7,432 nucleotides of DNA from an uncultured Lachnospiraceae bacterium (GTDB lineage: Bacteria > Bacillota_A > Clostridia > Lachnospirales > Lachnospiraceae). Shown here one piece after another: positions 4,161 to 7,432 of the stretch. A program made the translations under genes and the position numbers. The stretch is from the NCBI GenBank assembly GCA_947564305.1, contig CANOBT010000228.1, positions 1 to 7,432 of the forward strand. The letters run 5' to 3'. The notes under the pieces were generated by a model. That model saw nothing but the letters and a program-made list of their open reading frames with translations, did no database searches and was not told where the DNA came from. Within the stretch, counting starts at the first letter, position 1; every line of letters begins with the position of its first letter.

Positions 4161-4217
4161 CTGATTCAAACCCTTTTTATCATAACACATAACATCATTA
4201 CAATCTATTTTAATCTC
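4161..4217 (-). repeat. Promoter-bearing 57-nt repeat, copy B
   Basis: This is the partner of 2224-2280, with 5 mismatches in 57 and no gap. It sits upstream of the metallophosphoesterase gene. The two direct copies flank the regulator and phosphoesterase genes, so recombination between them would delete about 1.9 kb. Confidence 0.85.
4179..4207 (-). promoter_or_regulatory. Extended -10 promoter of the metallophosphoesterase gene
   Basis: The minus strand reads TGT-TATGAT (4187-4179), an extended -10 identical in position to that in copy A, again with a weak TAGATT -35 at 4207-4202. The start of transcription would be near 4172, about 65 nt before the ATG at 4107. Confidence 0.6.
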
Positions 4218-4356: not shown

Positions 4357-5466
4357 TCACCCCGCCTGCTCAGCCCCCATCAGCTTTCCCAACTGTTCCA
4401 CAATCCCTGCATTTCCATTAACGGATATCTCACCCACCTTTTCACAGATCCGCTCCAAATACTCCAGCTCCTTCAGCTTATAAAGCGTGTGGTTCTCATC
4501 CATCAGCTTCGCCGTATTGAGCAGCGACCGGGTAGATGCCACCTCTTCCCTTCTGGAAATCACATTTGCCTGGGCGGTCTTTTCTGCCACAAGTACGGAG
4601 TTCATAATGGCTCTGATCTCACCCGGCAGGATGATATCCTTGATTCCTGCACTCAGAAACGTCACACAGAACATATTCTCCCGCTCTTTCAGCACCACAT
4701 AGATTTCCTTGGAAATCTGTTCTTTCAATTCCAAAATCTCATCCAACTTGTAATTCCCCACGATTTCACGGATAGCCAACTGTACGGCAGAATAGAGCTG
4801 CCCCTTCAAATCCGAGATTGTCGCGGCAAATTGTACGGCGTCCCTGATTTTATACATGCAGGCAACATTCATCCGAATCCCGATTTTATCCTTGGTCAGA
4901 ATTTCCTGCCCCACAATATCCAGTTCTTTCTGTTTCATATCAAACACCCGATAGGAAATGCTGTGAGTATCATTCCAGAAGCGATATACCCCCTTAGAAA
5001 GCGGCTCCTGCATCACATTGTCAAAATATACAAGTCCTGTTTCGCCTTCTCCGACCCGTACCTCCGTATAAAATTTTCCCGGAAGCAGCGACAGCATCTG
5101 CCTGGTGACCTCCGGCCCGATTACCGCATCAGCCATGGACACAATCTTGATTTCGTATTTATCAAATACATTCCAGAATGTATATTCCTTCCTGTTTGCA
5201 TAAGATGCCAGTTTCCCGTTTCTATAGATAAATCCCACACAGCCATCCGGTATTTCCATATGTACCACGGACTCCTGAAATACAGGATCTTTCGAAAGAA
5301 TCTGATAGGGAACTTCCATATAATCCAACTCTCCTGTCATCTCCTCAACCTCTACCCTATAGCCCGCCATTTGCGAAAAATGATAAACCCCGGATGTGAT
5401 CATTTTCTTAAATATACCATTTTTTAATACAAATCCTGCCTGATTGTCCTGAATCATATACCTCAT
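4357..5466 (-). CDS. Slipin family (SPFH/Band 7 domain) protein
   Basis: This protein of about 369 residues has a C-terminal SPFH/Band 7 core, roughly residues 140-330 (REIVGNYKLDEIL, the LKEREN stretch, then AEKTAQANVISRREEVA and a helical tail). Slipins form ring or cage oligomers, usually at membranes. No N-terminal hydrophobic anchor is visible, so it may be cytosolic or peripheral. The N-terminal half repeats a beta-rich unit three times: near GFVLKNG..GVYHF, GFIYRNG..EYTFWN and GLVYFDN..GVYRFWN. I start at ATG 5466-5464 because GGAGG (5480-5476) directly touches the upstream in-frame ATG at 5475, leaving no spacer, but lies 9 nt from this one. It follows rtcB on the same strand across a large structured RNA region. 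Slipin-RtcB neighbourhoods are, as I recall, described among RNA-repair loci. Confidence 0.88.
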   Translation of the reverse strand: MRYMIQDNQAGFVLKNGIFKKMITSGVYHFSQMAGYRVEVEEMTGELDYMEVPYQILSKDPVFQESVVHMEIPDGCVGFIYRNGKLASYANRKEYTFWNVFDKYEIKIVSMADAVIGPEVTRQMLSLLPGKFYTEVRVGEGETGLVYFDNVMQEPLSKGVYRFWNDTHSISYRVFDMKQKELDIVGQEILTKDKIGIRMNVACMYKIRDAVQFAATISDLKGQLYSAVQLAIREIVGNYKLDEILELKEQISKEIYVVLKERENMFCVTFLSAGIKDIILPGEIRAIMNSVLVAEKTAQANVISRREEVASTRSLLNTAKLMDENHTLYKLKELEYLERICEKVGEISVNGNAGIVEQLGKLMGAEQAG

Positions 5467-5490
5467 AATTTTCATCCTCCAAATTTATTA

Positions 5491-5539
5491 AAAAGTTTTC
5501 TGTGCACTGATTTTTCTTTCACCTTTTTTGAAAACTTTT
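5491..5539 (-). promoter_or_regulatory. Leader inverted repeat in front of slipin, overlapping the closing stem of the folded RNA
   Basis: On the minus strand AAAAGTTTTC (5539-5530) is perfectly complementary to GAAAACTTTT (5500-5491), with a 29-nt loop. The second arm ends about 10 nt before the GGAGG of slipin. The first arm shares AAAAG (5539-5535) with the 3' strand of the 11-bp stem closing the upstream RNA, so the two helices exclude each other, as in many riboswitch expression platforms. AT-rich pairing makes it weak, so function is inference. Confidence 0.4.
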
Positions 5540-5763
5540 ATCCCGCTTTCATCAGCCCGATGCGGAAGTCTGGTTCAGCAGACAGTCCGGATGAAGGACA
5601 TGTCTGCTGCCGTATCTTGCAGACTGTTGTTCATCCTTTCCATCTCCGGTATCCCCCGACTGCTGGCAGCGGACCGAACTGCATTCTCACTCTGCATCCA
5701 TCAACAGCACTTTTAAAATCCTCCTGCTGAATGCAGACTGTGCCGGAAATCGGGATAAAAGCA
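5534..5763 (-). ncRNA. Large structured RNA (about 230 nt) with pseudoknot, class unknown
   Basis: All pairs are on the minus strand. P1, CTTTTATCCCG (5761-5751) with CGGGATAAAAG (5545-5535), 11 bp, closes the domain. P2, ATTTCCGG (5750-5743) with CCGGAGAT (5649-5642), 8 pairs with one G-U, stacks directly on P1. P3, CTGCATTC (5736-5729) with GAATGCAG (5686-5679), 8 bp. A small hairpin lies at 5672-5656. P4, AGTCTG (5625-5620) with CAGACT (5572-5567). P5 is a 9+4 bp hairpin (5609-5596 with 5588-5576, one bulge). Its entire 7-nt loop TTCATCC (5595-5589) is complementary to GGATGAA (5636-5630), a likely pseudoknot. No open frame here looks like protein. I recognise no named class. It could be a leader regulating slipin, a free RNA cut from the rtcB transcript, or both. 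Confidence 0.7.
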
Positions 5764-5773
5764 TTCTCATAGA

Positions 5774-5805
5774 GCGGATTCGAACCGCAGACTTAGATAG
5801 TCCTG
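5774..5805 (-). ncRNA. Second T-arm-like hairpin (no D-arm partner)
   Basis: On the minus strand GCGG-TTCGAAT-CCGC (5788-5774) has the canonical 7-nt T-loop (TTCGAAT, G53-C61-type closing pair) on a 4-bp stem. Just upstream GCAGGAC (5805?-5800 region) can pair with GTCTGC (5792-5787) around loop TATCTAA, sharing two bases with the T-like stem, so the two folds compete. The seven bases after the T-stem do not pair with any matching 5' acceptor strand, so it is not the 3' end of a normal tRNA. Confidence 0.45.
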
Positions 5806-5812
5806 CCAAATA

Positions 5813-5875
5813 TTGTGTACTCTACCCACTGAGCTACCGTTTACACGGGAGGGAGTCGAACCCTCGACACCACAA
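5813..5875 (-). ncRNA. Circularly permuted tRNA-like domain downstream of rtcB
   Basis: Minus-strand order: anticodon-stem 3' strand TTGTG (5875-5871); 5-nt variable region GTGTC (46 G, 47 T, 48 C as in tRNA); T-arm GAGGG-TTCGACT-CCCTC (5865-5849); 4-bp acceptor helix CCGT/ACGG capped by GTAA, a GNRA tetraloop (5848-5837); T8-A9; D-arm GCTC-AGTGGGTA-GAGT (5834-5819) with A14, G15, G18-G19 and A21; A26; anticodon-stem 5' strand CACAA (5817-5813), which pairs with TTGTG. Every linker has tRNA length, so an L-shaped elbow can form, but the acceptor ends are joined: no CCA end, no charging. This resembles the tRNA-like module of bacterial YrlA Y RNAs, which are known near Ro60 and RtcB genes. A 7-bp stem-loop (5899-5881) and CCAA/TTGG (5903-5900/5809-5806) may continue the RNA. 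Confidence 0.72.
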
Positions 5876-5904
5876 GCTTTTCTTAACCCCATGTTAAGAT
5901 TGGT

Positions 5905-5992
5905 GAAATAATTTATGACATACCTTGCAGCACACTGCAGGCACCGCCGGGCAGGAAGTATCTTCCCATACCCGTGCACAATAACTTATTTC
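5905..5992 (-). ncRNA. Branched helix directly after the rtcB stop codon
   Basis: On the minus strand GAAATAAGTTAT (5992-5981) pairs with ATAAATTATTTC (5916-5905) at 11 of 12 positions. The enclosed segment makes two hairpins: GCAC-GGG...CCC..GTGC with an inner GGAAG/CTTCC (5977-5941), and TGCAG-TGTG-CTGCA (5939-5926). Together this is a three-way junction beginning two bases after the rtcB TAA (5997-5995). It has no T-run, so it is not a simple terminator. It may be the 5' domain of the same RNA as the tRNA-like part. Confidence 0.5.
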
Positions 5993-5994
5993 CA

Positions 5995-7227
5995 TTATCC
6001 TTTGACCACACCGACTGTTTTCAATTTTCTGACGGGTGTAACCAAATCCAACTGCTGTGCCATGACCTGCTCGATATCCTTATAAGCAAACCGGCATTCC
6101 TCAGCCACATCATTTTTCTTACGTTTTCCAAGCACAACACCCTGTTCCTTGAGATCCACCATCACCTTCTCCGTAGAAAACGCCTGCATTGCCCCGGTTC
6201 GGGAATAGTTTCTGCCTGCGCCGTGTGAAGATGTACAAAAGGATTCCTGATTCCCTTTCCCTTCCACCACGTAGCTGTAGGAGCCCATCGCCCCGGGTAT
6301 CACAGCCATTTCACCCTTACGCACTCTGGTGGCGCCTTTTCGGTGCACCCAGACATTGGCGTCATAGTGATTTTCCAAAGCCGCATAATTGTGATGGCAG
6401 TTGATTTCTTCTCCAAATTCCACGGTCTGTTCCGTGTACTTCTCCACTATTTCTTTCACAATGGAACAAGTCTTTTGAAGCATACGGGCACGGTTTTCAA
6501 ACGCATATTCCATGGCCAGGTGCATCCAGTTGATATACTGCTGCCCTTCTTCTGTATCAGTAGGCAGGAATGCCAGTTGATACTCTTCCTTCACCTCACT
6601 GTACCATCTCCGGTTCAGTTCTCTTGCCGTTTTGTGGAAATAATCACAGACGGCCTTTCCCAGATGACGGCTTCCGGAATGAATCATGACGCAAAGATAT
6701 CCTTCCTCATCCTCCTGAAGCTCGATAAAATGGTTGCCTCCTCCAAGGCTTCCTGCCTGGAAATATCCGTCGTCAATCAAAGGCAGCAGCTCTTTGTTTT
6801 TCTCATATTTCTCCATTTCCTGCTTTGCCCGGTCAAGTACCCGGGATTCCTGCGGAACCTTGTAACGCTCTGTATTTAGCGGGATAGTTCTCATGATATT
6901 GCCGATCATTGCCTGAATCATCGTTCCATTTCCTGTCTGAACCTCCCGTATATCATCCACATGGATATTCGTCGGGATAAAGTCCATGCCGCATCCGATA
7001 TCCACTCCAACCGCATTTGGAATGAGCACATTCTTCGCTGCGATCACTCCGCCTATGGGCATTCCCTTTCCTGCGTGAGTATCGGGCATCAGGCAGACCC
7101 ATTTATGTAGAAACGGAAGCTGTGACAGATGATAGGCCTGTTCCAGACAATTTTTCTCCAACTTTCCTTCCTGCTCCAACCAAATCTTTACCGGAAATCT
7201 TGTGTTTTCATTATATAGTACAAACAT
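5995..7227 (-). CDS. rtcB: RtcB family RNA ligase (3'-phosphate or 2',3'-cyclic phosphate to 5'-OH)
   Basis: RtcB seals RNA ends left by metal-independent ribonucleases, joining a 3'-phosphate or 2',3'-cyclic phosphate to a 5'-hydroxyl using GTP and manganese. The 410 residues match the usual bacterial length (about 408). Motifs are complete: MPDTHAGKGMPIGGV (about 47-61), GVDIGCGM with metal ligands D76 and C79, GGGNH (H166), HSGSRHLG (H183), NCHHNYA (H279), RKGATR, IPGAMGS and the guanylated histidine in SSHGAGR (H335), which corresponds to H337 of the E. coli enzyme. The ATG at 7227 follows a good AAAGGATGAGG site (7243-7233). No rtcA cyclase, archease or RtcR-type regulator lies in the window, and no sigma-54 promoter is seen. 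Its 3' end runs straight into structured RNA that includes a tRNA-like domain, which is a striking neighbour for an RNA-repair ligase. Confidence 0.97.
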   Translation of the reverse strand: MFVLYNENTRFPVKIWLEQEGKLEKNCLEQAYHLSQLPFLHKWVCLMPDTHAGKGMPIGGVIAAKNVLIPNAVGVDIGCGMDFIPTNIHVDDIREVQTGNGTMIQAMIGNIMRTIPLNTERYKVPQESRVLDRAKQEMEKYEKNKELLPLIDDGYFQAGSLGGGNHFIELQEDEEGYLCVMIHSGSRHLGKAVCDYFHKTARELNRRWYSEVKEEYQLAFLPTDTEEGQQYINWMHLAMEYAFENRARMLQKTCSIVKEIVEKYTEQTVEFGEEINCHHNYAALENHYDANVWVHRKGATRVRKGEMAVIPGAMGSYSYVVEGKGNQESFCTSSHGAGRNYSRTGAMQAFSTEKVMVDLKEQGVVLGKRKKNDVAEECRFAYKDIEQVMAQQLDLVTPVRKLKTVGVVKG

Positions 7228-7281: not shown

Positions 7282-7354
7282 TGAAAAAACTTCCAGAACA
7301 TCATTTCAAAAAAGTTGCGAACTCTATTTTGACAAATGAATCGTAGAAACCGTC

Positions 7355-7383: not shown

Positions 7384-7427
7384 GAAAACAGCAAACCGAA
7401 AGATTTCAGAAAGGAGTCCCCTGCAAA

Positions 7428-7432
7428 ATGTC
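7428..7432 (+). CDS. Start of a divergent gene, cut by the right edge
   Basis: ATG at 7428 is preceded by AAAGGAG (7410-7416) at 11 nt and by the promoter at 7355-7383. Only the first codon and two further bases are inside the window, so nothing can be said about the product. Confidence 0.7.

Follow-up and report, generated by a model that had tools for sequence, protein, structure and literature searches.

The question raised by this locus is what an RNA that resembles a tRNA with its arms in permuted order is doing beside a gene for the RNA ligase RtcB. The locus lies in a stretch of 7,432 nucleotides (the window), probably the whole of contig CANOBT010000228.1, from an uncultured Lachnospiraceae bacterium, and the RNA fills the gap between rtcB and the gene of a slipin, a protein of the SPFH/Band 7 type. 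Judged by the comparison of relatives, the fold with its permuted tRNA elbow is real and widespread, and it sits in an RNA-repair locus where the Y RNA partner Ro60 was not found. In many gut bacteria a large structured RNA with a tRNA-mimic core lies between an RNA-repair gene and the gene of a probable ring-forming protein, and this suggests an RNA-repair particle that does without Ro60.

The permuted tRNA mimic

An earlier sequence-only reading of the window had described a permuted tRNA-like domain at 5813–5875, and every element of that fold is present, on the minus strand:

5813–5875, minus: permuted tRNA mimic (the core), recognised by the permuted order of tRNA parts
5875–5871, minus: 5' strand of the anticodon stem, TTGTG
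5870–5866, minus: variable region, GTGTC
5865–5849, minus: T-arm, GAGGG-TTCGACT-CCCTC
5848–5837, minus: acceptor hairpin, looped off, CCGT-GTAA-ACGG
Between acceptor hairpin and D-arm, minus: T8-A9
5834–5819, minus: D-arm
Between D-arm and 3' anticodon strand, minus: A26
5817–5813, minus: 3' strand of the anticodon stem, CACAA

A permuted-fold descriptor gave one match on the minus strand of the window, none on the plus strand, and none in 400 mononucleotide shuffles. ARAGORN called no tRNA in the window, and the standard-order cloverleaf of a tRNA gene is not found there. Single-sequence folding of a 186-nt region was silent (z 0.13), so that the structure becomes visible only when relatives are compared.

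Relatives were gathered with a slipin-family profile, and 80 loci, mostly from Lachnospiraceae or their kin by record title, were kept from at least 476 confirmed relatives (L035, L147 and L163 are one contig, and L134, L144–L146, L148, L150 and L152 repeat loci among the first 80). A covariance model of the core, R1, was built from 37 rows and found at 37 bits or more 5' of slipin in 74 of the 80 loci, including one cut copy in L050 (4960–5010), where the core ends after the acceptor and is fused to mid-slipin sequence without a start, through deletion or assembly error. Six loci gave no match: L006 and L080 hold too little sequence, and L018, L022, L040 and L078 lack the core. The last four all come from metagenome-assembled genomes (MAGs), L018 from the same one as the core-bearing L016. 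R1 by itself is unfit for whole genomes, where tandem tRNA genes score up to about 49 bits, and its genome matches were sorted by ARAGORN and by neighbouring genes.

In a structure-blind alignment of the 37 rows, 13 of 18 pairs showed two-sided changes, with 62 double-change cells against 12.6 in shuffles (0 of 500) and 3–15 cells in slid versions of the structure. Another 33 rows lay outside the training of R1 and were aligned by fitting them to the structure. Pairing holds in 98.8% of their cells (71.5% when shuffled), and 149 cells carry double changes against 43.3 (0 of 500); the number of pairs with double changes in these rows, 13 against 11.1, is unremarkable (44 of 500). The rows of one alignment came from a parse that fixes parts of the T-loop, T-stem and D-stem, and its invariant pairs are uninformative. 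By these counts all four core helices covary, with the compensatory changes among rtcB–slipin gaps that the earlier reading had named as its check, and these changes rule out what it had named as one refutation, two decayed ordinary tRNA genes.

The G15–C48 contact, which had been called possible, can be followed in the same way. The pair 15–48 is G-C in 61 of 69 parsed rows, A-U in 6, G-G in one (L009, register doubtful) and G-U in one (L038); this parse demanded T8, A14 and a purine at 15, and the pairing of 15 with 48 is all that is informative in it. The 33 model-found rows, to which no such rule applied, have T8, A14 and the D-loop GG in 33 of 33, and the pair is G-C in 29, A-U in 3 and G-G in one. 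With this exchange of G-C for A-U among relatives, a pair that lies outside the secondary structure varies in the manner of genuine tRNAs.

A structured RNA of about 460 nt

The coordinates 5813–5875 were correct for the core and too narrow for the RNA. Conserved structure extends over about 5992–5531, and comparison of the gaps places the mimic at the centre of a structured RNA, about 460 nt long, which occupies the space between rtcB and slipin (5531–5992). Over 29 full gaps, RNAalifold gave 135 pairs, 73 of them with double changes against 41.1 in shuffles, and 273 double-change cells against 94.9 (0 of 300), structure and counts being taken from the same alignment. The parts around the core are as follows:

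5905–5992, minus: domain 0, a three-way junction that directly follows the rtcB stop codon (RNAalifold, covariation, covariance model R2)
5992–5981 with 5916–5905, minus: closing stem of domain 0
5978–5945, minus: hairpin P0 of domain 0
5944–5920, minus: hairpin P1 of domain 0
5881–5899, minus: P2 hairpin, TCTTAAC-ATGGG-GTTAAGA
5774–5803, minus: module 2, an anticodon-arm-like hairpin (5803–5789) and a second T-arm (5788–5774), from helix counts
5531–5765, minus: domain 2, the large 3' domain (RNAalifold, covariation of its inner part, covariance model R3)
5765–5746 with 5550–5531, minus: closing stem of domain 2, AAUGCUUUUAUCCCG with GCGGGAUAAAAGUUUU
5656–5647, minus: GGGGAUACCG, inside domain 2

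Counted alone, domain 0 changes on both sides in 9 of 27 pairs and the inner part of domain 2 in 25 of 38, each with 0 of 500 shuffles doing as well. At E of at most 0.01, R2 was found in 30 of 54 slipin-type sources outside its training, and R3 in 16 of 57 such sources; in loci outside its training R2 places domain 0 just 5' of the core. Two opposite-strand matches of R3, one each in L018 and L022, are backward readings of sites already counted.

Module 2 is more variable. Two T-arms 56–94 nt apart occur in the window and in 48 of the 80 loci, the pair in L045 being a duplication; in that gap the core of T-arm, acceptor and D-arm is present as a tandem duplicate. By the same spacing rule the other 32 loci have no second T-arm, and a few of them (e.g. 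L005) have one outside it. Across the 48 regions the hairpin loop measures 3–10 nt, with 7-nt loops such as CUGUAAA in 18, and in 4 of the 48 the hairpin was not found. A strict anticodon-loop reading of module 2 was rejected, since loop length varies and the loop in the window is not a 7-nt anticodon loop.

YrlA and Ro60

The comparison with Rfam Y RNA models that had been proposed for this DNA yields a match to YrlA (RF02553) at 5879–5808 of the minus strand, with 41.3 bits and E 1.2e-6, but below the gathering score of 69. None of 11 loci reaches that score, and the Ro60-linked RNA of L129 likewise stays below it, at 46.5. The alignment of the window covers positions 17–92 of 114 with the outer pair failing, that is, the tRNA-like module without the basal stem; in other slipin-type loci it covers 23–85 (L064, L069), 23–88 (L029) and 1–114 (L072, 38.2 bits). 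In Y RNAs the basal stem, formed by the 5' and 3' ends, carries Ro60, and no such stem is present in the whole-RNA fold of the rtcB–slipin gap. Other Rfam 15 families gave three sub-gathering matches only (tRNA, mir-3613 and a T-arm fragment of tmRNA), with E up to 5. The earlier suggestion of a "YrlA-like or new tRNA mimic" can be kept in so far as a permuted, Y-RNA-like tRNA mimic does lie beside RtcB; a plain YrlA is not supported, and the mimic is one part of a much larger RNA. That reading had also seen no Ro60 gene, and the Ro60 family PF05731 was found in 0 of 30 related genomes of unstated completeness, with one of 14 controls positive.

R1 also found four RNAs in other contexts (L129/L161, L082/L160, L086/L162 and L084/L159), all four of which align with YrlA from 1 to 114; neither R2 nor R3 has a match in L082, L084, L086 or L129. 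In L129/L161 the YrlA-type RNA follows a WYL pair and precedes a TROVE/vWA Ro60 protein. In L082/L160 the next gene encodes a DUF2828/DUF7788 protein (L160 5128–6603), an arrangement that hints at a Ro60-like partner role for DUF2828 proteins. In L086/L162 the full-length RNA stands behind an rtcB that has the promoter box described below (its 10-base core) upstream of it, and in L084/L159 it lies near transposases. L162 also has, after rtcB and the YrlA-type RNA, an ORF of 692 aa (5046–7124) with no Pfam match.

Gene order, control and the slipin

The genes and control elements of the window that concern the RNA are these:

5995–7227, minus: rtcB, RNA ligase gene (Pfam PF01139, E 6.9e-108)
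4357–5475, minus: slipin, SPFH/Band 7 protein with three beta repeats (Pfam PF01145, AlphaFold2 model, fold matches, hydropathy)
7308–7321, minus: promoter box TTCGCAACTTTTTT upstream of rtcB (exact match)
7281–7276, minus: TATAAT-like −10 element (by reading)
7428–7432, plus: possible start of a divergent WYL regulator gene, truncated where the window ends (ribosome-binding-site-like aaggag at 7411)

Within 450 nt upstream of rtcB, the box TTCGCAACTTTTTT is exact in 40 of 63 sources, the window included, and has one mismatch in 18, while 5 have neither; the consensus of the copies contains a TATAAT-like element at a near-fixed distance. Both strands of about 0.77 Mb of locus DNA hold 45 exact copies, and the five that are not upstream of rtcB precede the RNA in L002, L037, L048 and L071 and the RNA remnant in L078. 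Of 56 testable loci, 49 encode at least one of two WYL-type proteins upstream of rtcB and 43 encode both; in 46 the WYL gene nearest to rtcB is on the opposite strand. The layout gives the locus rtcB – RNA – slipin the appearance of an operon under WYL control, with a conserved promoter box.

rtcB is upstream in 67 of the 80 loci, lacking in 9 that have at least 1.2 kb of upstream sequence, and cannot be judged in 4 that are too short; where it is missing or lies downstream, the RNA stays 5' of slipin. In a sample of the class, slipin occurs in 10 of 391 genomes (G002 and 9 more distant ones, 37–43% identical), and a distant rtcB (27–29%) follows slipin in 5 of those 9. In a sample of the family it occurs in 16 of 299 genomes, with R1 upstream at 37 bits or more in 12 and at about 22 bits in L157 and L158; of the rest, the RNA lies further upstream in L147, on the L035 contig, and L152 is the core-less locus L078. 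The RNA is thus tied more closely to slipin than to rtcB.

The slipin itself has no predicted membrane helix by hydropathy. Its AlphaFold2 model (pLDDT 84, pTM 0.57) matches, among the folds compared, the repeats of the major vault protein (MVP) together with an SPFH-like shoulder. A scan of viral contigs gave no confirmed slipin relative.

Possible roles of the RNA

What comparison shows is a covarying fold, a gene order, a promoter box, the failure to detect Ro60 and, as a predicted structure, the vault/stomatin-like model of the slipin. To account for these findings we favour, tentatively and at just under an even chance, a Y-RNA-type scaffold RNA without Ro60 that acts in trans with a vault/stomatin-like slipin partner in an RNA-repair operon. 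The locus would be transcribed as an operon, and the RNA, released from the operon transcript, would serve as a scaffold in trans. The slipin, from a fold family that forms rings and cages, would hold the 5' and 3' domains of the RNA and stand in for Ro60, the ring-shaped partner in Y-RNA particles. Once tRNA damage had switched the operon on, the tRNA elbow would recruit tRNA-handling enzymes, or broken tRNAs, to RtcB. The bolder form of this proposal is a bacterial vault-like RNA-repair particle under WYL control, in which a soluble MVP/SPFH ring or cage protein replaces Ro60 beside a Y-RNA-type mimic that has grown to about 460 nt, and this mimic loads RtcB or its tRNA substrates; we consider it doubtful.

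Several observations weigh against a trans-acting scaffold. No terminator and no listed minus-strand promoter adjoins the RNA, which is nearly always directly 5' of slipin, as a leader would be, with other genes between them in L035 only. The core is gone from L018, L022, L040 and L078 while parts of domains 0 and 2 remain (in L078 as read by eye), so that the mimic is either dispensable in these four MAG loci or misassembled there. Among the 9 distant slipin genomes, R1 matches upstream at 46 bits or more in 4, at about 17 bits in 2 and not at all in 3; inspection by eye picks out P1-like and GGATACC motifs in all 9, which is weaker evidence. The pTM of the slipin model is just 0.57, and an MVP-like fold alone does not amount to RNA binding or to a cage. 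Finally, the Ro60-like family DUF2828 was found in 0 of 30 genomes, with the control also negative everywhere, and this result is hence undecisive.

The main rival is a cis-acting leader of the slipin mRNA, whose tRNA-like fold would sense a tRNA-binding protein, a broken tRNA or a small molecule and set translation or read-through. Its position speaks for it, the RNA being on the coding strand and 5' of slipin in the loci examined, even with rtcB absent upstream or lying downstream, and without a terminator found after it; a leader with a tRNA-like fold is known in the yjdF riboswitch (PMC9142559). A leader of about 460 nt that is divided into separate domains would be a large one, however, and in one locus, L035, two ORFs separate the RNA from slipin. 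These ORFs, of 687 aa and 129 aa (L163 3039–5513, the same as L035 2442–4916), have no significant Pfam match, and a likeness of the former to the 692-aa ORF of L162 was rejected for want of convincing similarity. Masking of the Shine–Dalgarno site by the pyrimidine strand of domain 2, which would be able to cover it, was set aside because that strand covaries with an internal partner (GGAUGAA/UUCAUCC in the window). In L161 a core of this type stands beside Ro60, and for Y RNAs the literature describes action in trans. We regard a leader as possible, though less than probable.

Alternatively, the RNA might be a bait or sensor, module 2 and the elbow luring anticodon nucleases. The RNA would then suffer the cuts instead of tRNAs, or would signal the damage to the WYL regulators, and RtcB would reseal it. 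RtcB does adjoin the RNA, 18 of the 48 module-2 regions have 7-nt loops such as CUGUAAA, a role as competitive inhibitor has been proposed for YrlA (PMC7790460) and WYL domains are called ligand-binding regulators (PMC4012209). Such a function is unlikely in our view, given a loop of 3–10 nt that is not a 7-nt anticodon loop in the window, a hairpin not found in 4 of 48 regions, and a second T-arm not seen by the spacing rule in 32 of 80 loci, even if a few have one outside it; in Salmonella, moreover, YrlA fragments were not detected (PMC7790460).

An ordinary YrlA Y RNA, with a Ro60 gene that lies elsewhere and escaped detection, is very improbable: the core does match YrlA and is Ro60-linked in another genome (L161), but PF05731 was found in none of the 30 genomes, of unstated completeness, while one control was positive; the match in the window lacks the basal stem, and the RNA has a 5' junction and a 3' domain in addition. 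A decayed tandem pair of tRNA genes is hardly credible, since ARAGORN is silent in 79 of 81 gaps (2 calls), the helices and the 15–48 pair covary, and the surrounding domains are conserved along with the core, although the scores of up to about 49 bits that tandem tRNA genes reach with the core model make an origin from such a pair possible.

Other features of the window

N-terminal pieces of HsdM (PF12161, PF02384) at 1509–2198 end beside a serine recombinase (251–1552) and are a sign of a truncated restriction-modification gene. A near-identical stretch, CATAACA.CATTACAATCTATTTTAATCTC, occurs twice, at 2251–2280 and 4188–4217, upstream of two different genes.

Comparison with known systems

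The bacterial tRNA mimics among Y RNAs have so far been tied to Ro60. With YrlA (RF02553) the RNA described here shares the permuted order of T-arm, looped-off acceptor hairpin and D-arm, the conserved nucleotides of the tRNA elbow, and a location that may be near rtcB. It differs in its extra 5' junction, second T-arm, 3' domain and linkage to slipin, in the lack of a Ro60 basal stem in the window match, and in that Ro60 was not found in 30 genomes. YrlA-type Y RNAs measure 90–150 nt (PMC8394870), against about 460 nt for the conserved structure here, whose mature form may have other ends. The RNA repair operon rsr-yrlBA-rtcBA of Salmonella (PMC7790460) likewise combines a tRNA-mimic RNA with RtcB under a dedicated regulator; here WYL proteins stand in for RtcR and slipin for Rsr, and there is no rtcA in the window. 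The yjdF riboswitch also has a tRNA-like fold ahead of a gene, but it is described as a tRNA-Lys homologue, and is a small aptamer with an expression platform (PMC9142559).

For the protein, a close parallel in gene context is PaFlo8, an SPFH gene in a Pseudomonas rtc locus with RtcA, RtcB and RtcR (PMC13086221); its regulator is RtcR, and the passage on it mentions no RNA. In the titles and abstract openings of the literature on RtcB with slipin or SPFH proteins, YrlA, WYL and vaults, we found no description of this RNA, and an earlier notice in print is possible.

Vaults contain small RNAs and the TROVE protein TEP1. The slipin model resembles them in matching the MVP repeats and shoulder, but has three repeats only, and here both a cage and an RNA content are hypothetical. 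A Y-type mimic inside a larger RNA, beside RtcB and a protein of the SPFH ring type and apparently without Ro60, would separate the tRNA mimic from Ro60, and the locus offers a directly testable case for the role of such a mimic in RNA repair, with the conserved promoter box as a handle on the signal that induces it. The locus would also unite a Y-type RNA with an RNA ligase and a vault-like protein in common gut bacteria.
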